Below the pieces are notes generated by a model that ran no database searches, had not been told where the DNA came from, and saw only the letters and a list, made by a program, of their open reading frames with translations. This document shows, piece by piece, positions 959 to 51,049 of a stretch of DNA of 64,000 nucleotides; position 1 is the stretch's first letter, and every line of letters begins with the position of its first letter. The position numbers were made by a program, and so were the translations under genes. Origin of the DNA: Morinoia aosen (taxonomy: Eukaryota; Arthropoda; Malacostraca; Amphipoda; Talitridae); the NCBI GenBank assembly GCA_030386875.1, contig CM059562.1:75078095-75142094 (forward strand). The letters are read 5' to 3'.

Positions 959-1205
959 CGACTCCAACCACGACTCTACCACATCCGAATGAACGACTCG
1001 ACTCCGACTCCGACTCCACCACATTCGGAAAAGCGACTCCGACTCCGACTCCGACTCCATCACACTTCAGAGTAGCGACTCCGACTCCGACTCCGACTCC
1101 ACCACACTTCAGAGAAGCGACTCCGACTCCGACTCCGACTCCACCCTAAAACATCCGACTCCGGCGACTCCGACTCCCGACTCCGACTCCGACTCCGCAA
1201 CCCTG
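959..1205. repeat. GACTCC-type hexanucleotide repeat, degenerate
   Basis: The stretch is made of repeated CGACTC / CGACTCC units broken by short spacers such as ACCACATTC and ACCACACTTC. Read on the minus strand it encodes runs of Ser-Glu that extend the gypsy pol frame by about 30 residues after the RNase H domain. The junction with genuine pol sequence is near 1,205. The repeat therefore either replaced or truncated the integrase half of the element. Confidence 0.85.
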
Positions 1206-2998
1206 GTTTGGACAGAGTTGATACAGGAGAGGCAGTCAGCGACAGTATTGTCGAGACCTTTGATGTATCGGATATCAGTGGTGAATTGACTGATGAATGA
1301 CAGGTGTCGAGCTTCTCTTGGGGAATGTCTTTCAGAAGGCATCTTAATCGCTGAGGTCAAAGGTTTGTGGTCTGTGTAGATCACGAACTCCCTTGCCTCT
1401 AGAGCATAGCGAAAGTGTCTCACAGAAAGATAGATAGCAAGGAGTTCCCTACCGAACGCGCTATAAGCACGCTCAGTGGGCGATAGCTTTTTGGAAAAGG
1501 AAGCAAGCGGAGAGATATTAGTACCTACTTGTTGTTGCAAAACAGCACCTACAGCAGTACTTGAGGCGTCCACTACTAGACTGAAATCAGCATTAGCAAT
1601 AGGGTAGGATAATTCAGTCGCGGTAGCCAACTTGTGCTTAATCTCCTCAAATGCTTTTCTCGCATCCTCCGTCCATTTTACCTCAATAGATTTGCCTTTT
1701 TGTTTCGGTTCGAGCAAGTCAGACAAGGGGGCTAAAGTTTGAGCACAGTTGCGTATGAAGCGATGATAGAAGTTAACAGAACCTAGGAACCTTCTAAGTT
1801 CCTTCTGGGTCTGTGGAAGAGGAAAGTTTTTGATCACTTCTACTTTGGAAGGCAAAGGTTTTAGACCTAGGCTAGAGATTTCATGACCTAAGTAAATCAG
1901 TGATGGCTTTCCGAGCTCACATTTTGCAGGATTTACGAGGAGTCCATTGTCGGACAGTCTTTGAAAAACGACCCTAAGATGGTCTTTGTGCAACTCCGGG
2001 GTTGTGGATGCCACTAGGATATCGTCTAGATAGACATAGGCGAAAGTGAGATCAGAGAAAATTTCAGCCATGTGCCTTTTGAACGTCTGAGGAGCGTTCC
2101 TTAAGCCATATGGCATCTTGAGAAATTCAAAGATACCAAACGGAGTGATTACCGCGGTCTTAGCGATAGCACTCTCATCAAGTGGAATTTGATGGAAGGC
2201 GTACTGAAGGTCTATCTTTGAGAAAATTTGAGCTCCCTCTAAATTTGCACTGAAATCATGAAGATAAGGAATAGGGTAGCGATCAGGTAGAGTAACGGCA
2301 TTCAACCTGCGGAAATCCCCGCACGGTCTGAATTCACCGTTAGCCTTGGGTACTAGCAAAAGAGGGCTAGCCCAAGGACTTTTGGAACTGCGGATGATGC
2401 CGCATTCTTGCATGCGCGCAAATTCTTTCTTGGCTAAAGCCAATCGATCAGGCGGTAGTCGCCTTGCTCGGGAATAGACGGGCGGACCAGTAGTTTCGAT
2501 GTGGTGTTTCGTGCTAGTCTGCATTGTTTTAGTAACTAAGTTAGGATTTGTCAGTGCAGGATAATCTGCGAGTACCTGTTCAAACATGCACTCTTCCTTG
2601 AAGGCGATAGCGAAAGAATGCAAGACATTAGCTCTAGTTATGCTACAAGCGGGAATTGAGATCTGTGTCTCCTCGTCCCTAATTCTACGGTTTTTAACAT
2701 CTACAAGAATCCCAAACTTCGCTAGAAAATCCGCGCCAATGATATGCTCTTGGACTTCCGCGACGAGGAAAGTGAAAAGAAAGTTTCGCCTCAATCCCAG
2801 ACTGCACTCTAAAATTCTTTCCCCATAACAGGCTATTGGAGTGCCATTTGCGGCGCGTAGTGTCGCCACAAGTTTATTCTTTTTGTCTTTAGCCGTTGCT
2901 GGGATAATTGACACACTAGACCCAGTATCGATGAGAAAACGATATTTGGTAGTGGGATCCACAATGTTCAAGAGGCGAGTAGTCTGGGAATGAGGCAA
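1205..2998 (-). pseudogene. pol: Ty3/gypsy pol: protease, RT, RNase H (integrase missing)
   Basis: The 629-residue frame holds a retropepsin motif (Asp-Thr-Gly, residues 24-26), then a reverse transcriptase with the catalytic YLDD at 323-326, and an RNase H domain with acidic residues near 477 and 543. The frame ends just after the RNase H tail (Val-Ala-Asp-Cys-Leu-Ser) and then reads into the Ser-Glu hexamer repeat. The zinc-binding and catalytic parts of integrase are absent. The core is uninterrupted and typical of Ty3/gypsy elements in arthropods. It lies downstream of the gag frame with about 90 bases of stop-containing sequence between, so Gag-Pol expression is lost or would have needed frameshifting. 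I read it as a 3'-truncated, non-mobile copy. Confidence 0.9.
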
Positions 2999-2999
2999 C

Positions 3000-3987
3000 G
3001 CAGTACTCGCTACTATGCGTCGCTGTTGGCGTTTCCCGAAGTCATTTCGGTATAACGCGGACAGTGTCTAGAGGCACATTTGCGAGCTTAGTCACCAAAT
3101 TTCATGTGGTACCAGCATAAATTACTACTGGCATCACGAGAGCGCGACCGAAAGCGGCGGTCTTGATTTGACCTATCATAAGATCTACCTCTATCAAAAC
3201 GTTGAGGAGGAGGAAAAGGATGATAGTTGGAGGGATAGTCATAGGGATAGTCGTAGGCATTTTGGTGGCTTTGGAATCTCCCTGGGCCTTGCTGAATGTG
3301 AGCTACACTCTTACCTAACTGGCAATTCTGGAGAGCTTGCTTTATCTCAGCGATGTCTTGCTGCATCTTATCTATTGTGGCTGAGGTTTGGTTTTGAGCA
3401 GTATTTGAGGGGCTAAAATTTGCAGCTGCTACGTTCAAGGACGCTACCTGCGGTGCTTGTGACACGTTTAGGTTGCGCATCACTGTCTCAGTGGACTCTG
3501 CAAGCTTCTCTAAAGTTTGATCAGGGCCTGCTAGCGATAGGAATGGACGCACATTGGGAGGAAGTTTACTCATATACACTTCTTTCAGAAATCCCTCAGC
3601 TACGGCAACACCCGCTGCCAGTTTGCGCAACTCCTTAACCAACGAAGTGGGAGAGAAAGAGACAGAGACAGGTGGAATTGCTGAGGCGTCTACAAGGCTT
3701 CTGAATTTGTCCGCATCGGACATCTGCAACTTCTGCAATATCTTTCTTTTCAAGGTGCCGTACGGATTAATAGCAGGAGGGCTTTCTAGCAATTGATTGG
3801 AGTCATTTAATAATTTTGTGGGAGCTGCGGACACAAGGGCGTAAAATTTGTCATGTTCATCCCTTATTTTATGATACCTAAACATTGCCTCCACTTGGTT
3901 AAACCAAGTGTGACTGTCTTCTGGTATGAAAGGCGGCAGACTAAGAGGTTTTGTGCGCGCTCGATCTTCATTATCTGAGTCAGCCAT
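3000..3987 (-). pseudogene. gag: Ty3/gypsy gag with broken zinc knuckle
   Basis: The 299-residue frame starts at an ATG after a long leader and has the layout of arthropod gypsy Gag: a capsid-like helical region, a Gln-rich linker, then an Arg/Ser-rich tail ending in Cys-Trp-Tyr-His-Met-Lys-Phe-Gly-Asp. A TAA follows at once. The same frame continues with Ala-Arg-Lys-Cys and another Cys, which looks like the rest of the cysteine/histidine nucleocapsid finger, so the TAA falls inside the finger. Two more in-frame stops (TAG TAG) separate it from pol. The order gag then pol on the same strand matches a single element. The stop suggests decay, although a readthrough design cannot be excluded without relatives. 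Confidence 0.8.
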
Positions 3988-4020
3988 GCTAGCAATTTCT
4001 TTCTACGAAAGCGAAAATTA

Positions 4021-4598
4021 AACTATGCTTGCTCGGAATTACGTATTCAACGCCTAATAAATTTTTGACATTAAAGGTGTCGCAGGTTTGCGTTATTACT
4101 TTACCTACTCAATCATTCAAATAAAGTTGAAACGGAAAGAAGAAAATATAAAATTGGAAACGAAAATTTATGCGGTATGCGGCAATTAGCGTAGGCACAA
4201 AAACAGGTGAAAAAAGTTATTTTTCTACCTACTCAATCAATCAATAACGTTGAAAAACGGAGAGAAAGAGAGAATGGAACGAGAATTTTTACGGTAGTCA
4301 GAATAAGCGTAAAGCACGGAAATAGGAGAAAAATTATTTTTCCCACCTACTAAGGCACATGAAACAAACAAGGACAGAATAGCGCTGAAAAAAATTTTTG
4401 TTAGAGCTGCTCAGAGAACATTCATTAACACGGTTAAATCCATAGAAATTCTCAAAGACTACGACATGGGAAACTTATCACTACAATGATATGCCAAAAT
4501 TAACCTCTCTCACAATTTCTCAAACACTTATCGAGTTGAATATTTGTTTTTATTTAAGTTTTAAGGCTGGGGTTTTAATCTTTGGGGTTTTAAACTCT
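4021..4598 (-). repeat. Gypsy 5' leader with two degenerate ~120-bp direct repeats
   Basis: Between the gag start and the candidate primer binding site there are two imperfect direct repeats (about 4,095-4,215 and 4,216-4,345). Each begins with ACCTACTCAATCA and ends with a T-rich run (TTATTTTTC). They probably belong to the untranslated leader of the retroelement. No coding potential is visible. Confidence 0.5.
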
Positions 4599-4610: not shown

Positions 4611-5010
4611 GTGTTAGGTTCGGCCGTGGGTAGAGCCAGACCTAAACATACATCGATAAGCATTTGCAGTAAACCATGAGAAGGGTAATGAGGCACTCTG
4701 GAAACTCAGCTTTTTGTCTCGGGTTTATTGAAGGAGCCGGAAAGGACCGCCGAGTCTTGAGCAACTGAAGAACTTGGCTGAAGAGGGTTCGCAGTCCGTG
4801 CAGGCGAAAAGGCTCCGGCTAGTGACGAAGTCGACAGTGTGGGTGTTGTTTGAAAGTGATCTTAGCCCAATTTATAAGACTTTGAAAGACCCGTGGCGTC
4901 GGTAGTCTCAATTTAAGTATCGGCTTATTTAATTTCAAGCCGGGCAATATAGTTATCGTAGTGAAAGCAGGGAGTTGAATTTTAAAGGTAATAGCTTGTA
5001 GTTTTTCAGT
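4611..5010 (-). repeat. Possible 5' LTR of the gypsy element
   Basis: This non-coding segment is more GC-rich than its surroundings and lies just upstream of the candidate primer binding site, where a 5' LTR should be. Its outer boundary is not visible, and no copy exists at the other end. The assignment is positional inference only. Confidence 0.3.
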
Positions 5011-5024
5011 TAAGGCCAGACAAG

Positions 5025-5242
5025 GTAAAGGCCAGTTCAGGTAAGGCCAGTTCAGGTAAGGCCAGTTCAGGTAAGGCCAGTTAAGGTAAGGCCAGTTAAG
5101 GTAAGGCCAGTTAAGGTAAGGCCAGTTCAGGTAAGGCCAGTTCAGGTAAGGCCAGTTAAGGTAAGGCCAGTTAAGGTAAGGCCAGTTCAGGTAAGGCCAG
5201 TTCAGGTAAGGCCAGTTAAGGTAAGGCCAGTTCAGGTAAGGC
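5025..5242. repeat. 15-bp minisatellite GGCCAGTTMAGGTAA
   Basis: About fourteen head-to-tail copies of a 15-bp unit, GGCCAGTTCAGGTAA or GGCCAGTTAAGGTAA, occur here. The two variants fall in paired blocks rather than at random, which suggests expansion by unequal exchange of multi-unit segments. The unit length is a multiple of three, so open frames across the array mean little. Confidence 0.95.
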
Positions 5243-5249
5243 CCAAAAC

Positions 5250-6280
5250 AAGGACCAAAACTAATCCAAGAAAGGTAATCCCATGAAAGGCCCAGGGGAA
5301 AACTGGTGTGTTGGCGTTGGTGATGACGATGAGGTCTGCAAAAAGACGAACGCTGGATGAGCAGTCCAAGGAGACATCAAGGAAAAATTCCACCACTGAC
5401 AGTCCCCAACATCGTAAATGATAAACTCCCACAAGTAGACTCCGAGAAGTCCTACAGATCCGACACGAGCTAATTTAATAATCTCTCTTTTGTCAAGCTC
5501 AAGGAGATAAGACAGATTTTTGTAGCTGGCAAGCCAGTTCACTAATGCCTTTGGCTTTAATATCTGAGCATGAGGTTTAAGAACTTCCGGTAATGAAAAT
5601 CGTTATTCATTACCGAAACCACAGGCAATTAAGCACAAGATCTACGGAATATCATGAAATATCCATAAAACTGCAACTTTTGCAAGAATCTGCAGGACAG
5701 CAAATCCTGTGATTTTTAAGGCAGTAATATCGGTGATTAAATTTATAGAGAGTTATGGAAAACACATGACTTAATAACACATGATTCATGAAGCAGAAAG
5801 AAAAGAAATACAGCAACTAAAAAATTGCATAGAATGCGAATTAATGCTTTTTTAGTTCTCTAGAACATCTCTATAACTGTACGAGAAATAACAGAGAAAA
5901 ATAATCCTAACTTTCATTAATATCAATAATACTGAAAAACACTGACAAGCATCATTGACAAAAATTTAAGGAATAATATCTACACTGAGAAAAGAAACAC
6001 TAAACGTGTTTGCTTGCACAGAAGGAAAATATGCGCAAAACGAAACATGAAAATCAAGGTGACGATGACCCGGCGGTTTTACGCGTCGCCATTTGTAATA
6101 AACCGCCGGCATACATCGTACGCATTCACGAAGGCAGATGCTAGTATGTATTTTTGTCGCAAGAATAAGCAAAATTGATTTAAATTTGTTGATAGTGATT
6201 TATATTGAAATAAGTGCGATTAAACGCAAGATTTAAGGAGTACGAAATATATATAAAATAAAACTAAAAACTTTAGCAGG
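5250..6280. other. No supported gene
   Basis: A 93-codon minus-strand frame (5,261-5,542) has a Leu/Tyr-rich start but no recognisable domain, and it runs into the minisatellite side. I do not call it a gene. The rest is AT-rich and featureless up to the 3' end of the CR1 element. Confidence 0.4.
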
Positions 6281-6361: not shown

Positions 6362-9319
6362 CTACAGTTGTTGCGCCCTTCGGTGGGCGAGCTGCTGCAG
6401 CAAACTGTTGCCTGCAGCAGGCTGATAGTAGTGAGGCAGCGGTGGCTTGTCCGGAACCGTCCTCAAAAATTCATCCAGTGCCCTCTTAAATGCCTCCAGC
6501 GACCCGACATGCTCTCTCAGGGTGCGGGGAAGACAGTTAAAAAGTTTTGGGCCCATGACTGAAAACGACTGCTCATGCCTGCTCCTCACACTTGCTGGGG
6601 CTCTGTTATTCAAGGTCGGGACCACACACAATGTACCGAACCGAATGTGCTGTTTCGTCCGAAGCCCAATTTTGCCGTCCGTGAAGTTCGGAACAAGCCC
6701 CGTCAGCATCTTCCATGTATATATTACTATATACCTCTCCCTACGCCGTTGGAGGGAGTACATCCGATAATGCTCAAGTCGACTCCAATAATCCAGTCGA
6801 CGAGCACCTGCAATCCTGGCAGTAAAGGACCGCTGAATACTCTCCAGCCGCACTATATCTCCCCGCCCACTTGGGCTCCAAAGTTGGCAGCAATACTCTG
6901 CCAGGGGGAGAATTAGCGCTCTGTACAGGGTCAACATTGGGGTCGGCTCTCTGGTCCTAAAGGTCCTCCACACCCACCCCATCTGCCGCCTGCATCTCTT
7001 CACCACACCACTGATGTGCTCGCCGAAGCCTCCTCCCTCCTCCACAACAACCCCCAAGTCTCGAAGAGAAAGCTTTCTCTCAATCGTGAGGTTACCCGCT
7101 GTCGTGTAGGAGAATGCTTCGTCTGGATGCCGGCCGTACCTAATGAGCTCAAATTTAGCCTCATTGAATTTCATGTTATTTTCCTCCGCCCAGACATAGA
7201 TCCTCTCCAAATCCTCCTGTAAGTCGACGCAATCCTCTAAGCTGGCCACCTCCTTAATTATCCTGGTGTCATCAGCAAAAGAGGACGCCCGCGCATGTTG
7301 CAGGTTTAGATCAATGTCTGCGATGTGGATCAAAAACAGTAGCGGGCCCAGCACTGAGCCTTGCGGGACCCCGCTTGCAACCACCGACTCAGACGAGAGG
7401 CACCCATCCACGACCACCATCTGCCTCCGATCTGTCAAGAAACTGGCCAACCATCTCAGCAACGTTCCTCCAATGTGGCAAGCCCGCAGCTTTCGCAGTA
7501 GGACACCGTGGTCCACCTTATCAAAGGCTTTGGCGAAGTCCAAGTACACCACATCGACTGCCCGTCCACTGCCCAGCTCTTCGGTTATTAAGCGGTGATG
7601 CTCTAGGAGCTGCGAGAGGCATGACCTTCCTCTTCTGAAGCCATGTTGATGCTCGTTGAAGAGGTCCGCACTCTGCAAAAGACGCACCAATCTCCTGGCT
7701 ACCACCCTCTCAAAGACCTTAATAACATGTGACGTCAGTACTACTGGTCGATAATTCATTGGGGCGTGCTTTTCTCCGCCCTTGAATATCGGCGTCACTA
7801 AACCATGCTTCAGTGCTTGCGGGACGCTGCCTTCGCTCATCGACGACCTCCACAGCCGAAAGAGTGGCATCTTTAGTTCCTCGCAGCAATTTCGCAGCAG
7901 TACGGCAGGGATTCCATCCGGTCCCGGCGCCGACGTCGGGGACAGTTCTTTTATAGAGACCACCAAATCGTCCTCCGTAAAGCAGATGTCCTCCAACAGT
8001 CCCGGTTCACGGATCCCTCGCAGCAGCTCATCCAAGTGTGACCTCAGGCTCTGGAGTCTCGGTACGCTAAACACGGACTCATATTGCTTTCTCAAGACCT
8101 CACACTTTTCGTCTGGAGCACTGACAATACTATCACCGATGCGAAACGGTCCTACCGTAGACCTTGTCAGGGTTCTCCTTTTGGCGAATGCATAGAAGTA
8201 CTTAGGGTTTCTTTGGATTGCCTTAACGGCCAAATCCTCCTCCCTCAAAGCTTCCTCCTCATGCGAACGCTGGAGCAATACCTCGAGGTCACGCACCATT
8301 GCAACAATTCTCTGCTTTGTCTCTGGAGTGGCTGGTTCTGATAGTCGCTTTAGGAGCCGTCTCCTCTTGCGCATCAAAGTACGGCGATCACTAGGAACAG
8401 ATCTACCTTTATGCTTCCTTCTCCTCGGCACGTACTTTGGGCAGACGTCAGCCAGCACCCCACAGAACTGCTGATACACTTCCTCTGCCACATCCGCATC
8501 TATCCGGTCCTCCCAGTGTATCTCCAACAGGTGTCTCCTCAACCCAGTCCAGTCCACACGATCGCTCATGAAGTTCAGAGAGTCAAGCGCACACCGCTCA
8601 CTTTGGCGCTCCTCACTACGAGACTTTGAGCCTAGGTCAACGGTGGCCAGGATTAACCGGTGATCCGACAGGATAGTGTCTTCGACAGCTAGTCCTCTCA
8701 CCAGGTCCCCATCATTTGTCAGGAATAGGTCCAGTACACTGTCCAACCGCGTAGGCACAGTGACATACTGCTCCAGGGCAAACTCCTCCATAAAGCTCCA
8801 AAGAGCAGCCGCCTGTGTTCTGGTATCATTGGCACCTCCCTCCATCCTACCAGTGGACCAGCACATCCGAGGGAAGTTGAAGTCTCCCAACACCACCATG
8901 GTTGGGGTGGGAGTACCCAGCTCCTCCAACCTCCCAACAAGATGGCCAAGCGCAGTATCGAAGTTTGTCGATTCACATGTAGGAGGTCTGTAAATCACCG
9001 CCAGGACCAGCCTCCTACTGTCGAACCACAACGAAAGGTGCTCCACCACTCCATCAGAACCGCCAGTGAGGACAACAGCTTCAGCGGCTATATCCTCCCT
9101 TACGAACACCGCAACTCCGCCCTTCTTTCGGCCTGGGAGTCGGTCCGATCTAAATAGCTGGAAACCCTCCATGTAGACCTCAGCGTCAAGCACGTCCACG
9201 TTCAGATGGGTTTCCACCAAAGCAATCAACACAGCACCCGCGAGAAGAGCTCTGTCCCTGAGCATTCCGACCTTGAACTTCTTATGACGGGTGCTTAAGC
9301 CCTCCACATTGCACATCAT
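6362..9319 (-). CDS. CR1-like LINE ORF2: endonuclease and reverse transcriptase
   Basis: The 985-residue frame is uninterrupted. The N-terminal apurinic-type endonuclease has Glu36 in Glu-Thr-His-Leu, a Gly-Asp-Phe-Asn-Phe motif at 145-149 and Ser-Asp-His at 218-220. The reverse transcriptase follows, with Ala-Pro-Gly-Pro-Asp-Gly near 464-469, Asp-Phe-Ala-Lys-Ala-Phe-Asp at 594-600, Gly-Val-Pro-Gln-Gly-Ser at 650-655 and catalytic Phe-Ala-Asp-Asp at 681-684. A C-terminal thumb-like and Arg-rich region completes the length usual for CR1 ORF2 proteins. The ATG lies about 20 bases after the ORF1 stop, as expected for termination-reinitiation. Family knowledge says it nicks target DNA and copies its own RNA into it. 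Intact motifs suggest a young, possibly competent copy. Confidence 0.93.
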   Translation of the reverse strand: MMCNVEGLSTRHKKFKVGMLRDRALLAGAVLIALVETHLNVDVLDAEVYMEGFQLFRSDRLPGRKKGGVAVFVREDIAAEAVVLTGGSDGVVEHLSLWFDSRRLVLAVIYRPPTCESTNFDTALGHLVGRLEELGTPTPTMVVLGDFNFPRMCWSTGRMEGGANDTRTQAAALWSFMEEFALEQYVTVPTRLDSVLDLFLTNDGDLVRGLAVEDTILSDHRLILATVDLGSKSRSEERQSERCALDSLNFMSDRVDWTGLRRHLLEIHWEDRIDADVAEEVYQQFCGVLADVCPKYVPRRRKHKGRSVPSDRRTLMRKRRRLLKRLSEPATPETKQRIVAMVRDLEVLLQRSHEEEALREEDLAVKAIQRNPKYFYAFAKRRTLTRSTVGPFRIGDSIVSAPDEKCEVLRKQYESVFSVPRLQSLRSHLDELLRGIREPGLLEDICFTEDDLVVSIKELSPTSAPGPDGIPAVLLRNCCEELKMPLFRLWRSSMSEGSVPQALKHGLVTPIFKGGEKHAPMNYRPVVLTSHVIKVFERVVARRLVRLLQSADLFNEHQHGFRRGRSCLSQLLEHHRLITEELGSGRAVDVVYLDFAKAFDKVDHGVLLRKLRACHIGGTLLRWLASFLTDRRQMVVVDGCLSSESVVASGVPQGSVLGPLLFLIHIADIDLNLQHARASSFADDTRIIKEVASLEDCVDLQEDLERIYVWAEENNMKFNEAKFELIRYGRHPDEAFSYTTAGNLTIERKLSLRDLGVVVEEGGGFGEHISGVVKRCRRQMGWVWRTFRTREPTPMLTLYRALILPLAEYCCQLWSPSGRGDIVRLESIQRSFTARIAGARRLDYWSRLEHYRMYSLQRRRERYIVIYTWKMLTGLVPNFTDGKIGLRTKQHIRFGTLCVVPTLNNRAPASVRSRHEQSFSVMGPKLFNCLPRTLREHVGSLEAFKRALDEFLRTVPDKPPLPHYYQPAAGNSLLQQLAHRRAQQL

Positions 9320-9339
9320 TATAGTGCAATGAGTTTCCT

Positions 9340-10350
9340 TGCTTACCAGACTCGCTTGCAGGTGCAGGTTCGGGCCTCTGTTACCAAAGGACGATGCTCG
9401 TCTCGCCCACTCAGTACTCTCTCCAAAAGCTCCTGGATTGCCTGCACCTGTCTCCGCAACTCTAAAAAAGGAGTCGCATTCTCCAAATTTAGAAGATTAG
9501 TCCTGTCCGACCCAAGGCTCGGCACAGTCGCTGCAGGCGGAGGAACTCCAAAAGCCTCAACTCCGCGGCCGCTCACAGCCTCTCTAAAAGAGATTCTCGC
9601 CGGTGGAGGCGCGCCAACAGCATTCGGAGTCACCTCACTACCCACTGCGTTGGCAGCTTCTCTGACTTTTATTCCCGCCGGATGGAGGAACTTGCACTGT
9701 TTCCTGGTGCAACTCAGACCTTCCACCGCTTTCCAACACAAGGGTGGATGGAAGTACTCACATTTCCGGCCTTTGCTGCATCCCTCCTTCAGTTTTCCCC
9801 CAAACTTCGCGAATTTATAACACACCTTGGGGTGGGAGAACTCACAACCTTCCCCCCTTCTGCCATACTTACACTCCCTCCTCAGGAAGTGCCTACACAC
9901 TTTAGGTCCAGCTTTAGAGAGCCCAGTGGCCGACAACGCCTTAGCTGGTTCAGGCACAGAAACCGCCGCCGAAACCTCCCCCTCCGGCACCATCAACGAA
10001 TCATCCGACACAGATCCAGATCCATGGCCCGGTGTCAGAGGAGCAGGAGGACACTCGACGACGACGGATGGGGCGAGAGTCCCAGATCCGGCATTCCCCG
10101 CTTTCAGCTGCCTCTCAATTCGAGAAGCCATGACGGCAAACTCCTCGCCGCACTTTTTCACGACACACGTCTCACACTTGAATTTGCTGCGGGAGGTCTC
10201 CAACCATACCAGGTGGTACACTGGCAGACCAGAACACCTCAAGTGGACAAAGACTCCGCAGTCTGTACACTTGAGGGCCGATCCCCCCAACTCCTCCCCG
10301 CACAGCCCACAGCACGTCCCACTCGGGACAGTGTGATACATGGCACTCAT
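9340..10350 (-). CDS. CR1-like LINE ORF1: PHD-like plus three CCCH zinc fingers
   Basis: The 335-residue frame is open from ATG to TAA. Residues 13-62 form a Cys/His cluster of PHD/RING-like spacing (Cys-x2-Cys pairs at 14/17, 28/31 and 59/62). Residues 152-223 hold three consecutive CCCH fingers (about 152-173, 177-201 and 205-223), each ending Cys-x-Phe/Tyr-x-His-Pro or similar. A Leu/Gln-rich helix near 300-325 could oligomerise. ORF1 proteins of LINEs bind the element RNA, and CCCH fingers commonly bind single-stranded RNA, so an RNA-binding role is likely. The unusual pairing of a PHD-like module with CCCH fingers is visible directly. Location just upstream of ORF2 on the same strand supports one bicistronic element. 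Confidence 0.88.
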
Positions 10351-46939: not shown

Positions 46940-46944
46940 ATGAT
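46940..46944. other. Target site duplication, left (ATGAT)
   Basis: ATGAT lies directly before the TG of the 5' LTR and is repeated at 51,002-51,006 directly after the CA of the 3' LTR. Confidence 0.92.
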
Positions 46945-47498
46945 TGTTAGGCCCACCGCCAGTATGCCAGACGAGATTCTAGCCTTACGCTACCGGCTCT
47001 GTAAATAATGTTCACCGAAATTTAATCCGAGTATCCTAGATACTCGCCAAACCCCCTTGAATCCGGCTGATCTGAAATTTGGCAGAGCGACGAAATACTG
47101 TACGCTCCCTAAACATTAGAGAGCGACGAAATCAACTGTCTGCTCCCCGATAATTCAAGAACGACGAAGCGGACTGTCCGCTCTCTAAAAATTGGAACTT
47201 ATTATTTTGGTCTTGAACGATCTGCAGCCGACCTGCATCTATTAATAAAGGTTGAAAAATAAATCCAAACTTATCATCCCTTGAAGTAAGACCAACGACG
47301 AAAATCGTTCACCTTGGCGTCCCACCGAGGATAAGCCAACTATATTATCTCAGAAATCGGTGTCGACGGACAGCCAACCATAATAATAATAATAATAAAA
47401 CTAACAAAGTGGCACTTGAACTAAGGCCTACCATACGATAATCTAACAAGTGGCTCCCGAACAAGGGACTGCCAAGAATATAATATAATAATCTAACA
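46945..47498 (+). repeat. 5' LTR (554 bp)
   Basis: It begins TGTTAGG and ends CTAACA, a short inverted repeat with the usual TG...CA ends. Compared with the 3' LTR I count three substitutions and one 3-bp difference in a TAA/AAT microsatellite. Two AATAAA signals lie at 47,244 and 47,258, as expected for LTR polyadenylation. The last 90 bases contain two decayed copies of the LTR/PBS boundary. Confidence 0.95.
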
Positions 47499-47500
47499 AG

Positions 47501-47512
47501 TGGCGCCCGAAC
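47501..47512 (+). promoter_or_regulatory. Primer binding site, tRNA-Lys type
   Basis: TGGCGCCCGAAC starts two bases after the LTR end. These 12 bases match the 3' end of tRNA-Lys used as primer by many LTR elements and retroviruses. After that the match stops. Confidence 0.85.
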
Positions 47513-47605
47513 TAAGCGACCAGATCCCTGGAAAAGGTGCATCTCTACTCAGCGACCCAAACTCGGGAAAACTGCAACTATTCTTCAAGCCGGTAAAATA
47601 AAACC

Positions 47606-47905
47606 CGCATCTCCTGCCTCCACAGAAATTCGCTGTTGGAGCAGTGCTAAAGGAACTACGCCTATACTTAAAAATCGAACGCATCTCCTGCCTCCACAGA
47701 AATTCGCTGTTGGAGCAGTGCTAAAGGAACTACGCCTTATACTCAAAAATCGAACGCATCTCCTACCTCCTCAGAAATTCGCTATTGGAGCAGTGCTAAA
47801 GGAACTACGCCTAACCCTCAAACATCGAACGCATCTCCTGCCTCCACAGAAATTCGCTGTAGGAGCAGTGCTGAAGGAACTACGCCTAAGACTACAACTC
47901 GCTAA
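47606..47905 (+). repeat. Four ~75-bp tandem repeats in the retroelement leader
   Basis: Four head-to-tail copies start at about 47,606, 47,680, 47,755 and 47,830, each with CGCATCTCCTGCCTCC and AAGGAACTACGCCT. Unit length near 75 keeps the frame open, so the first 63 codons of the long frame are probably untranslated leader. Confidence 0.85.
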
Positions 47906-47906
47906 G

Positions 47907-49781
47907 ATGAATTGCGTACAAAAAGCGCAACAATATGCTGAAGCGCTGGGAATAACACCAGAACAGCCGGAATACCGAGAGATTTTCCTCGGTCGATTGG
48001 AAAGGCTGGAGCAAGAGGAACGAGAACGAGAGGAACGAGAACGAGAACGAGAAGAACGAGAACGAGAACGAGAAAGAGAACGAGAACGAGAACGAGAACG
48101 CGAGCGCGAGCATGAGATTCGCATTCAACAGCTCAACCAGCCAAGAGCCCCAGAGGCGAGACGCATTAAGATTCCTGAAATCACGCCATTCGAGCCAGAG
48201 AAAGAAGGTATGCAGGAATTTCTACAACGGTTTGAGAACCACTGTACAGCCCAAAGGCTAACCGAATACGAGGTCGTCATTACCCTCGAAACCTTAATAA
48301 CGGCCAAAGAACGAAGGCTCATCCAAACGATACCCGCCGTCGCTCGCTGCCGCTTTAATGAAATCAGGACACTACTATTAGAATCTCATAAAGTCACTAC
48401 AGCTCCACTACGTGATAAGTACTGGAAAGTAAAACCAGGAGAGGCCGCGTCCCGCAGAATGCTGCTCAAGGACGAGCTCTCCACCCTCCAGTCCGAGCCC
48501 TGGTGCACCAACTCCTCCCGCAGCGTCGAAGTGACGAACCGCGAAGAGAACGCCTCAAGGTCTACCTTCACGAACCTGTATCCTATGCCCAACCTCGGTC
48601 GCGGTCCTGTTCCTACCGAGGTTTCTAGAGTGCTGTTATCTACAGTCAGCCCCAGGAATGAAAGTTCCCCTCGCCTGAGATCCAGTGATTTTACTACGAG
48701 TAACGAATCCCCGCGAATGCGACAAGGTTCTTCACTCTTCAATAAGCAGGCAACGCTGCCAATGTATCCAGCTTCTGCAGCCGTGGCATCTATTTCGAAG
48801 TCCCCTTACCGTATGCCGTCTCAGAATTACTTCACAGAGGACGAACGTCCGTCCACTGCGACTACACCGCTGCTTAACAGCCCGTTTAGCTCTTCCAAGG
48901 AAGGTATGTGCAAAACCGAAGGTTCTCCCGATGCCGCTCACTGCCAATTCGTGATAGGGGTCATTGGAGATATACTCACCGAAGAACCCTCGGCTGAGGA
49001 CCCTCTTGGTTCTACTGAAGAATTATTGCTCTTACCATCTGGAGAGGACGATCAAAACCATGGGCTATCGAATAATAGGAGGCTCAATACTGTCTCAGAT
49101 AATACAGCAGGCATAAAGCAATTTTTGGTGCGGAGTGAAGATGGAGCCTTGCAAGCTCTGCACACCGTGGGAGAAGATGGGCTACTAGCTGTCGAGGGAA
49201 CTTGCGGCAGAAATGGGGCGCAACCAAATATCGTTGTCAAAAGTGGCGTCGTTTACGGTCTCGTTGATGATGATGGTGATGACGGTGACACTGAACATGA
49301 TTTAGATTCGAACCTCCTCCTACAAAACAACGAATTAGGTTTGAGTGCTGACAAACCTATTTCTGTGGAGATAACTAAAGAAAATATTCCTAATGATGAC
49401 GAAGAGGAAGAGACTCGTTTGTATACGCGTCGACATTGCGACTTCGTGTACTATTCTATGGGTGTACTGAACCAGCATATGATGGAACAGCAACCTCAGG
49501 CGGTCGAAGAGAAGATCCAAATTAAAGTAAACGTCAAAGATGGTGTTGGTGTTACCAAGCGTTTCTTGTGCAACAAAGAGCGTAGTCCTTCATTCCTTCC
49601 ACAGCATCTCATCGATAAACATCGTATCAAGATAGTTGAAGGTGACTTTTGGAAGTGTCTCAAGTGTGACGAGTTGTGCAACAACGCGGCAGACATGCTC
49701 AGACATGTAGCGTCTCATCGTGCTAATGAGCCGCCAACGAAGCCTACAATTAGGATCAGTGAGCGTGAACCTCCTGAATAA
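47907..49781 (+). CDS. Gag-like protein fused to a zinc-finger-containing segment
   Basis: The frame is open from 47,718, but I choose the ATG at 47,907 because the upstream part is tandem repeat. Residues 1-30 and the segment after the Arg/Glu coiled coil (about residues 28-72) resemble arthropod Gag: Pro-Glu-Ile-Thr-Pro-Phe-Glu-Pro, Phe-Leu-Gln-Arg-Phe-Glu and later Lys-Val-Lys-Pro-Gly-Glu. Near 48,440-48,520 the character changes to Ser/Thr/Pro-rich, then acidic sequence. The C-terminal part has degenerate Cys/His units and one complete C2H2 finger (Cys-Leu-Lys-Cys ... His-Val-Ala-Ser-His, about 49,656-49,710). The frame ends in TAA at 49,779, but the same frame goes on beyond it with more finger-like sequence. 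I infer that a cellular zinc-finger cDNA replaced the 3' half of gag and all of pol. The fusion product, if made, would carry Gag multimerisation and a nucleic-acid-binding part. Confidence 0.7.
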   Translation: MNCVQKAQQYAEALGITPEQPEYREIFLGRLERLEQEEREREEREREREEREREREREREREREREREHEIRIQQLNQPRAPEARRIKIPEITPFEPEKEGMQEFLQRFENHCTAQRLTEYEVVITLETLITAKERRLIQTIPAVARCRFNEIRTLLLESHKVTTAPLRDKYWKVKPGEAASRRMLLKDELSTLQSEPWCTNSSRSVEVTNREENASRSTFTNLYPMPNLGRGPVPTEVSRVLLSTVSPRNESSPRLRSSDFTTSNESPRMRQGSSLFNKQATLPMYPASAAVASISKSPYRMPSQNYFTEDERPSTATTPLLNSPFSSSKEGMCKTEGSPDAAHCQFVIGVIGDILTEEPSAEDPLGSTEELLLLPSGEDDQNHGLSNNRRLNTVSDNTAGIKQFLVRSEDGALQALHTVGEDGLLAVEGTCGRNGAQPNIVVKSGVVYGLVDDDGDDGDTEHDLDSNLLLQNNELGLSADKPISVEITKENIPNDDEEEETRLYTRRHCDFVYYSMGVLNQHMMEQQPQAVEEKIQIKVNVKDGVGVTKRFLCNKERSPSFLPQHLIDKHRIKIVEGDFWKCLKCDELCNNAADMLRHVASHRANEPPTKPTIRISEREPPE

Positions 49782-50200
49782 CCGCGTCCTAGCGCTACTA
49801 AGCAGCCTCCTATCTCGACTTCCAATAATAAATTACGTTGGAAGGTCAGGAAACGTAAGGAGGGTTTTCATCGTGGTGGCATTTGTGATAGCGTCTTCGC
49901 TAGTCGTCGCCGAATCGTACAACATCGGATAACTCACACTAATTTGCGGCCGTACCAGTGCAAGGTTTGTACGGAGGGCTTCCCTTTTCGAAGACCTCGC
50001 ATACGTCACAGGAACTCTTTTCATTCCGAGTTTGCTCTCAGTCTTGCCAGTTCTGCCGACTACTGTACCCGACAGTTTCTGAACTCAAGCGACACAGTTG
50101 TAATGCAAGCCAGAAGAGCGGCTTTCCGTGTCCGTATTGCGATTTTGAAACTAGCATGGACCATTCAGCTGTTCATGCACATCGCGACGCATGGTCGTAG
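49782..50200 (+). pseudogene. Continuation of captured zinc-finger coding region, broken
   Basis: Directly after the TAA and in the same frame there is a basic stretch, then Ile-Cys-Asp ... His-Arg-Ile-Thr-His, a linker-like Thr-Asn-Leu-Arg-Pro-Tyr and Cys-Lys-Val-Cys, the start of the next finger. Near 50,000 the reading continues in another frame with Cys-Gln-Phe-Cys ... His-Ser-Cys and Cys-Pro-Tyr-Cys ... His-Ala-His-Arg, ending at TAG near 50,198. One stop and at least one frameshift therefore interrupt what was a single multi-finger coding region. Confidence 0.65.
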
Positions 50201-50444
50201 TACCAGATATTTCGAGATAAAGCTTATAACTATGTTCCTTGTATAAGATAAGATGTTAAAAGTGCTCTAAGCTAGGGCCTATATCACTTAAGATTCTAGA
50301 ATTAATTAGCATATAACCCCTATGTGTCGAACGGTCTCGAAACCCAATCAGAGACCTAACGGACTTCGATTTCTAATTATTGATCCAACTGGCGTGGGTT
50401 TGTTAAGACTTTGCTTTACAAGTAAAGTCTTGTCATTATGGGCG
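50201..50444 (+). other. Trailer between captured coding region and 3' LTR
   Basis: It is non-coding and may be 3' UTR of the captured transcript. It contains a perfect 8-bp stem hairpin (AAGACTTT ... AAAGTCTT, about 50,405-50,432) just upstream of the 3' LTR. The expected polypurine tract is not evident. Confidence 0.5.
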
Positions 50445-51001
50445 TGTTAGGCCCACCGCCAGTATGCCAGACGAGATTCTAGCCTTACGCTACCGGCTCG
50501 GTAAATAATGTTCACCGAAATTTAATCCGAGTATCCTAGATACTCGCCAAACCCCCTTGAATCCGGCTGATCTGAAATTTGGCAGAGCGACGAAATACTG
50601 TACGCTCCCTGAACATTAGAGAGCGACGAAATCAACTGTCTGCTCCCCGATAATTCAAGAACGACGAAGCGGACTGTCCGCTCTCTAAAAATTGGAACTT
50701 ATTATTTTGGTCTTGAACGATCTGCAGCCGACCTGCATCTATTAATAAAGGTTGAAAAATAAATCCAAACTTATCATCCCTTGAAGTAAGACCAACGACG
50801 AAAATCGTTCACCTTGGCGTCCCACCGAGGATAAGCCAACTATATTATCTCAGAAATCGGTGTCGACGGACAGCCAACCATAATAATAATAATAATAATA
50901 AAACTAACGAAGTGGCACTTGAACTAAGGCCTACCATACGATAATCTAACAAGTGGCTCCCGAACAAGGGACTGCCAAGAATATAATATAATAATCTAAC
51001 A
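50445..51001 (+). repeat. 3' LTR (557 bp)
   Basis: It is the same as the 5' LTR apart from about three substitutions and one extra triplet. It ends CTAACA followed by the ATGAT target duplication. Confidence 0.95.
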
Positions 51002-51049
51002 ATGATATTTTGCACTGCGCGAACACTATGGGCAGCCCCTAAAAACAAT

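Follow-up and report, generated by a model that had tools for sequence, protein, structure and literature searches.

A crustacean LTR retrotransposon family carrying a spliced host gene segment fused to Gag

Introduction

Acutely transforming retroviruses (v-onc) carry spliced host messenger RNA (mRNA) sequence in place of parts of gag and pol, often fused to Gag, and need a helper to replicate. Gene capture by long terminal repeat (LTR) elements is already known in principle. Here an LTR element is described at positions 46945-51001 of a 64,000-nucleotide stretch of Morinoia aosen DNA (assembly GCA_030386875.1, contig CM059562.1, forward-strand positions 75,078,095 to 75,142,094), which is called the window throughout. 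Between its LTRs the start of Gag is joined in frame to an intron-free segment of a cellular C2H2 zinc-finger gene, and its sequence makes it very probable that the element is a non-autonomous LTR retrotransposon founded by one capture of spliced host mRNA.

The published systems are cited below for those parts of each source that were compared. One paper mentions v-onc capture, and reports host gene transduction by LTR elements in both animals and plants as well as large retrotransposon derivatives that are moved in trans (PMC6431247). For metazoans, LTR-mediated retroposition was described as template switching at microsimilarities onto packaged mRNA (Tan et al. 2016, via PMC5408686 and PMC8232201). 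In maize, the LTR element Bs1 has a hybrid frame that includes coding pieces of three host genes (PMC13317346; PMC5408686). Captured genes within LTR elements of rice and sorghum are given as gene lists with Ka/Ks values, and some were expanded by retrotransposition (PMC3726574). The PxyMasc system of Plutella consists of LTR-borne partial complementary DNAs (cDNAs) in W-linked multicopy tandem arrays, which feed silencing RNAs against the parent gene (PMC9674220). Finally, Gmr1-like Ty3/gypsy elements, in which integrase (INT) precedes reverse transcriptase (RT), have been reported in other crustaceans (PMC3587641).

A spliced host gene segment in the element

Genome searches covered the 1.99-Gb assembly. 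The finger-containing part of the element was used as a query and matched, besides element copies, three blocks on the minus strand of contig C1, two of which sit inside a 1,549-amino-acid open frame. Alignment revealed that positions 48438-48536 (plus strand) correspond to the last 99 bases of a host exon (exon A; 93% identity), in frame with Gag, and that the sequence from 48537 onward corresponds to a second exon (exon B; 89-91%), separated from exon A on contig C1 by 6,970 bp. At the host locus the donor reads GTGACG/GTCAGT and the acceptor CTCACAG/AACCGC, and the element reads GTGACGAACCGC across 48536-48537. The element joint is the exact spliced joint, from which a GT-AG intron of 6,970 bp has been precisely removed. 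Because the host intron is exactly absent, the segment is of RNA-level origin and derives from a spliced mRNA.

The first part of exon B (48537-49397, plus strand; 89% to host) is Ser/Pro-rich and acidic, and the second part (49398-50213, plus strand; 91%) contains the C2H2 fingers. About 0.8 kb of the large exon B is missing between them. Their joint, at 49397-49406, is not a GT-AG splice; cryptic splicing was considered for this deletion and rejected, as a GT-AG placement accounts for at most 35 of 60 bases, against 53 of 60 when the placement is free. The host match stops in mid exon B, where no poly(A) is present, and the 3' tail of a pol-bearing parent family (50214-50444, plus strand; 93-95% to its elements on contigs C20 and C17) resumes at that point. 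In total, 1,776 bp of host-derived sequence is joined in frame to Gag and takes up the place of pol and of everything in gag beyond codon 177. The region 47907-50444 is fully assigned to Gag start, host cDNA and element tail, leaving no place for pol. The original prediction, made from the window alone, had noted a Ser/Pro-rich, acidic and finger-containing region in the Gag frame without a polymerase and had proposed that a host transcript replaced part of gag and all of pol; both points were borne out, and the test it named, a multi-exon host gene whose introns are missing from the element, gave exactly such a gene.

The source of the captured segment is a multi-exon cellular WD40-C2H2 gene on contig C1. 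The protein it encodes is an orthologue of Hyalella azteca LOC108673215 (64% across the part used in the search); Penaeus proteins are more distant (30-31%), with two intermediate proteins at 48-50%. The domain list of the Hyalella protein includes PF00400, which we take to be WD40. Its N-terminal part maps to five ordered blocks on contig C1 upstream of exon A, from 17016025 down to 17007285; two of these overlap in query coordinates and one match contains a stop. Together with exons A and B, the host gene comprises seven blocks in order over about 26 kb. The host protein found these orthologues in the protein database, where the fusion protein of the window copy, used as query, gave no match, probably since candidates were limited by length.

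Element ends and pol-bearing relatives

The 5' LTR (46945-47498, plus strand) is 99% identical to the 3' LTR (50445-51001, plus strand), with 3 substitutions in 555 aligned bases and a Kimura two-parameter (K2P) distance of 0.0054. The target-site duplication ATGAT stands on either side, at 46940-46944 and 51002-51006. The flanking LTRs and target-site duplication expected of a carrier in LTR-mediated gene capture are therefore both present. A primer-binding site, TGGCGCCCGAAC, lies at 47501-47512 (plus strand) and is presumably of the tRNA-Lys type. It is followed by an untranslated leader (47593-47893, plus strand) with four direct repeats of about 75 bp. Translation can begin at the ATG at 47907, the first in frame, and the frame stays open to a stop at 49779-49781. 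Its N-terminal 177 codons (47907-48437, plus strand) encode the start of Gag. The near-identical LTRs, duplications, primer site and Gag-like start of the original prediction are all in place.

As a separate observation, the 3' end of each LTR (47380-47500 and 50883-51001) contains two degenerate blocks resembling the primer-binding site, AGTGGCACTTGAAC and AGTGGCTCCCGAAC, upstream of the real one. They look as if the LTR had grown by absorbing copies of that site, and LTR length varies among copies.

Two pol-bearing relatives, the uncaptured parent element, are present in the genome on contigs C20 and C17. Their LTRs are 97.5-98.3% identical to the window LTRs over the aligned bases, and their end pieces align with the window element over its offsets 1-1503 and 3258-4057. 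They have the LTR, leader, Gag start and 3' tail in common with it, with 94% DNA identity in the Gag start, which aligns to about 48440. At the place where the window Gag turns into host sequence, their Gag runs on. The middle encodes a protease (PR), then INT, then RT and RNase H. On contig C20, Pfam identified PR then INT in one piece and RT then RNase H in a piece downstream; on contig C17 it identified RT and RNase H, with INT read from the sequence of the middle piece. The parent is a Ty3/gypsy-type element of the order gag-PR-INT-RT-RNaseH. INT upstream of RT is the Gmr1-like order, here in a probable amphipod genome. The captured-protein query had no match in either pol-bearing element. 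The original prediction had also proposed a search for relatives that share the LTR and carry pol, and those found, with nearly the same LTR, lack the finger part.

Copy number, spread and single founding

The capture is not peculiar to the window copy and founded a family found at 45 places. A search with the captured protein gave 71 matches in 46 clusters, one of which is the host gene and 45 of which are element places. One of the 45 is doubtful (C14:21811459-21812170): it consists of two small opposite-strand pieces at 65-79% identity, is more diverged than most, and is possibly an old rearranged copy. Ten copies carrying the host segment (cargo copies) lie within 1.3 Mb on contig C20 (C20:5164881-6455808). 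Since the six readable members carry the same upstream flank, this cluster points to block amplification and not to repeated insertion. Pairs on contigs C2, C3 and C14 have both flanks in common and represent duplicated blocks. After collapsing the ten C20 places and these pairs, about 33 insertions are left, or 32 if a pair on contig C23 is also a duplicate. At 8 of the 11 separate insertions with both ends available, perfect 5-bp duplications were found, all different; the other three had none. Between the LTRs of a copy, K2P reached 0.063 in the C20 block and was lowest of 11 in the window copy; this range omits one C20 member (0.0715), which has only 132 aligned bases.

The 264-amino-acid exon segment missing from the element has a single match in the genome, the host gene. 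Moreover, a one-base deletion late in the captured sequence is common to 15 of 15 readable copies (a sixteenth is gapped there), and in the same number the frame is lost after about 50030. From the missing exon segment found once and the shared one-base deletion, a single capture follows; as far as the copies were compared, one capture that founded the family and then spread fits the data.

Aligned identity of cargo-copy LTRs to the window goes down to 83% (two have only 150-166 aligned LTR bases), against 92-97% for the internal parts, and the LTRs of pol-bearing elements cluster with that of the window copy. Because of this drop in LTR identity beside high internal identity, and this grouping, exchange of LTR and Gag with pol-bearing elements was suspected. 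It did not reach significance for LTR or Gag in approximately unbiased (AU) tests (p 0.0675, 0.0661 and 0.0665 for LTR clades; 0.137 for Gag). In the Gag tree the 16 cargo copies stand apart from the two pol-bearing elements with support 100/99.

LTR-related stretches also occur at C25:5954040-6083435, where many repeats of an internal LTR segment (query 140-239) follow one another in steps of mostly 76 or 114 bp. This is satellite-like growth.

Zinc fingers and selection

Five C2H2 units can be aligned with the host in one frame. In the window copy their Pfam scores are weak, the third and fifth alone keep all four ligands, and the fourth and fifth lie beyond the copy's own stop; beyond this stop the host match goes on, keeping the frame until about 50030 and shifted after it. 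Across 16 copies, ligands are complete in 0/16 for finger 1, 0/16 for finger 2, 12/16 for finger 3, 7/16 for finger 4 and 8/16 for finger 5. The zinc ligands that a functional C2H2 protein keeps are thus broken in fingers 1 and 2 throughout. Gag had also been taken to be fused to a nucleic-acid-binding protein; the fusion is real, and the case for a working binding protein is weakened by the loss of these two fingers.

The selection counts used 16 of the 45 places, with each duplicated block represented once; among the remaining 29, 12 belong to those blocks and 17 did not enter the counts. Codons complete in fewer than 10 copies were excluded. Variants shared by at least two copies mostly date from the time when the element was mobile, and most of those private to a single copy arose once it had inserted. 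Shared variants in the Gag start comprised 23 nonsynonymous (N) and 28 synonymous (S) changes and no stops, an N/S ratio 0.31 of neutral (p 5e-5). Private variants there comprised 67 N, 25 S and 9 stops, and the shared and private N/S ratios differ (Fisher p 0.002). The captured parts were near neutral in both classes. Counts of N/S/stops were 80/23/0 shared and 139/54/7 private in the acidic part, 32/13/0 and 53/20/4 in the finger part, and 19/7/0 and 40/10/1 at 49782-50025; shared N/S was 0.79 to 1.31 of neutral. Stops were nevertheless distributed unevenly, with 0 among 225 shared and 21 among 429 private variants overall (p 2e-4), and 0/174 against 12/328 in the captured part alone (p 0.010), where the neutral chance of zero shared stops is 0.0035 (transition weight 2). 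The stop at 49779 is private to the window copy among the 16. By inspection, indels that several copies share in the captured frame have lengths of 3 or 9 bases as far as about 50025, and single-copy indels include frameshifts. In the out-of-frame part beyond, copies share differences of 1 and 2 bases at 50161 and 50183.

These counts suggest that the protein encoded by the Gag start is important, that translation has to run on without a premature end, and that the host-derived amino acids matter little. With fingers 1 and 2 broken in all 16 copies compared and a near-neutral rate of amino-acid change, the cargo can most likely be seen as a tolerated passenger that must leave translation uninterrupted and not as a working transcription factor. 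One may guess that an open frame is needed for protection of the RNA against decay, or that Gag tolerates a tail of any size.

Origin and alternative explanations

The mechanism of LTR-mediated retroposition, as given in the relevant part of a review (PMC5408686), fits the element. A host mRNA would have been packaged by chance into particles of the element. Reverse transcriptase would then have switched templates twice at candidate short similarities between element and mRNA, which in a three-way comparison of the junctions are one of about GGAGG at the 5' junction and a weak one at the 3' junction, and a jump within exon B at a short GA-rich stretch would have dropped the 0.8 kb. The hybrid would subsequently have been moved by enzymes of pol-bearing relatives with the same LTR, primer-binding site and leader. 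During this mobility the Gag start would have been conserved and the fused frame kept free of stops, with host-derived amino acids drifting and fingers 1 and 2 losing their ligands.

Several points weigh against this account. The 3' junction offers only about 2 exact bases of similarity, and enzyme supply in trans is inferred from the shared ends. The selection counts draw on 16 of the 45 places, and shared and private variants are a crude proxy for internal and terminal branches. The shortage of shared stops appears in the pooled comparison, no single region being individually short of them (p 0.12 to 1). Conservation of the Gag start could partly reflect exchange with pol-bearing elements, as 9 of the 52 variants that copies share in Gag recur in the Gag of one of the two pol-bearing elements. 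An apparent signal of purifying selection on the fingers among 11 copies (20 N/13 S shared against 38 N/9 S private) was rejected when it disappeared with 16.

Other origins can be weighed against the same joints. That a processed pseudogene made by a long interspersed nuclear element (LINE), or a rearrangement of DNA, was joined to an existing LTR element without LTR template switching would explain loss of the intron in the first case, since LINE-made retrocopies generally lack introns. However, the host part begins inside exon A and stops mid exon B without poly(A), the parent tail follows directly, and DNA-level events would have retained the intron, which makes such a history very unlikely. 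The finger region might instead be native to the element family, and it does occur at all 45 places, but the search itself used it as query. Both pol-bearing relatives lack it, none of the 117 RT matches listed (the best candidates) is less than 30 kb away from a place with cargo, all 45 considered, and an orthologous intron-containing cellular gene exists. Within the searched scope a native origin was rejected, the circumstances named in the original prediction as refuting capture having not been found, and its probability is close to nil.

Two further proposals concern function and not origin. The fused protein could be a selected product in which Gag assembly and residual fingers aid the element, for instance through RNA or DNA binding or an effect on pol-bearing relatives. 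The open frame in shared variants, the third finger intact in 12/16 and a pairwise dN/dS of 0.50 for the finger part with 11 copies would agree with this, whereas the loss of fingers 1 and 2 in all 16 copies and the near-neutral shared N/S of the captured part with that larger set speak against it, so that such a role seems unlikely. A related suggestion, to be held with considerable doubt, is that a long-lived, helper-dependent element has maintained the captured chimera as a gene product, has kept it translatable while moving many times, and uses its Gag start and host-derived remainder to enter or bias the particles of pol-bearing relatives. By analogy with the LTR-borne retrocopies of Plutella (PMC9674220), the copies might serve as a source of small RNAs that target the host gene. 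The 89-91% DNA identity to host exon B would allow this, and the ten C20 copies in 1.3 Mb recall the multicopy arrays described in that source, but nothing in the analysis points to antisense transcription, and this role is judged quite improbable. Capture of a spliced mRNA followed by helper-dependent spread, with a cargo that is mostly carried along, is the preferred account.

Other repeats in the window

The window contains other repeats, all on the minus strand. A second retroelement (1109-4002) has an RT and RNase H frame at 1109-3067 and a DUF7041 frame at 3088-4002. By eye, long frames at 6362-10350 resemble a non-LTR retrotransposon, with a 1,044-amino-acid endonuclease and RT-like frame and an additional 335-amino-acid frame with C3H-like motifs. 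A frame of a repeated WPYLN unit, also read by eye, lies at 4819-5376 in a tandem repeat with a 15-base period.

Comparison with known systems

The literature search did not turn up this element family; it covered openly available papers, apart from the animal cases cited in one source (PMC6431247), and absence from print is not claimed. In the parts of the sources compared, each known system has some of its features. Host sequence between LTRs and non-autonomous relocation are common to it and the transductions described in PMC6431247, where no case in the part compared joins parent gene, splice joint and parent element, although the animal cases cited there might. An intron-free copy inside LTR sequence is shared with metazoan LTR-mediated retroposition; the compared parts of the reviews give retrocopies with LTR signatures and no amplified lineage from one capture. 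Like Bs1, the element has a hybrid frame that includes host coding sequence; unlike it, as far as the sources were compared, this sequence comes from one gene with an intact splice junction, is fused to Gag and occurs at 45 places in an animal. The rice and sorghum captures are also host genes inside LTR elements, but in plants and, in the part compared, given without junction-level capture and parent gene. Plutella PxyMasc likewise has partial host cDNAs spread by LTR retrotransposons in many copies in an arthropod, whereas the copies here are dispersed with 5-bp duplications and known from genome sequence alone. The parent resembles Gmr1-like crustacean elements in having INT upstream of RT, and no host cargo is described for these in the part of the source compared (PMC3587641).

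The unusual feature is the combination: an animal LTR family from one capture, amplified, with parent gene and parent element at hand and an open Gag-host frame. With the parent gene and the parent element, the splice joint, the switch points and many datable descendants in one animal genome, the process can be tested stepwise. Conservation of the Gag start and of an open frame, next to a cargo that drifts, raises the question of which parts a helper-dependent LTR element cannot lose if it is to stay mobile. In architecture the element resembles the acutely transforming retroviruses, in which spliced host mRNA also stands in place of gag and pol parts, often as a Gag fusion. The present element differs from them as an endogenous crustacean LTR retrotransposon dispersed in the germ line, whose cargo is no known oncogene. 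The case points to the v-onc route being at work among the endogenous retrotransposons of an invertebrate and able to found a successful family.

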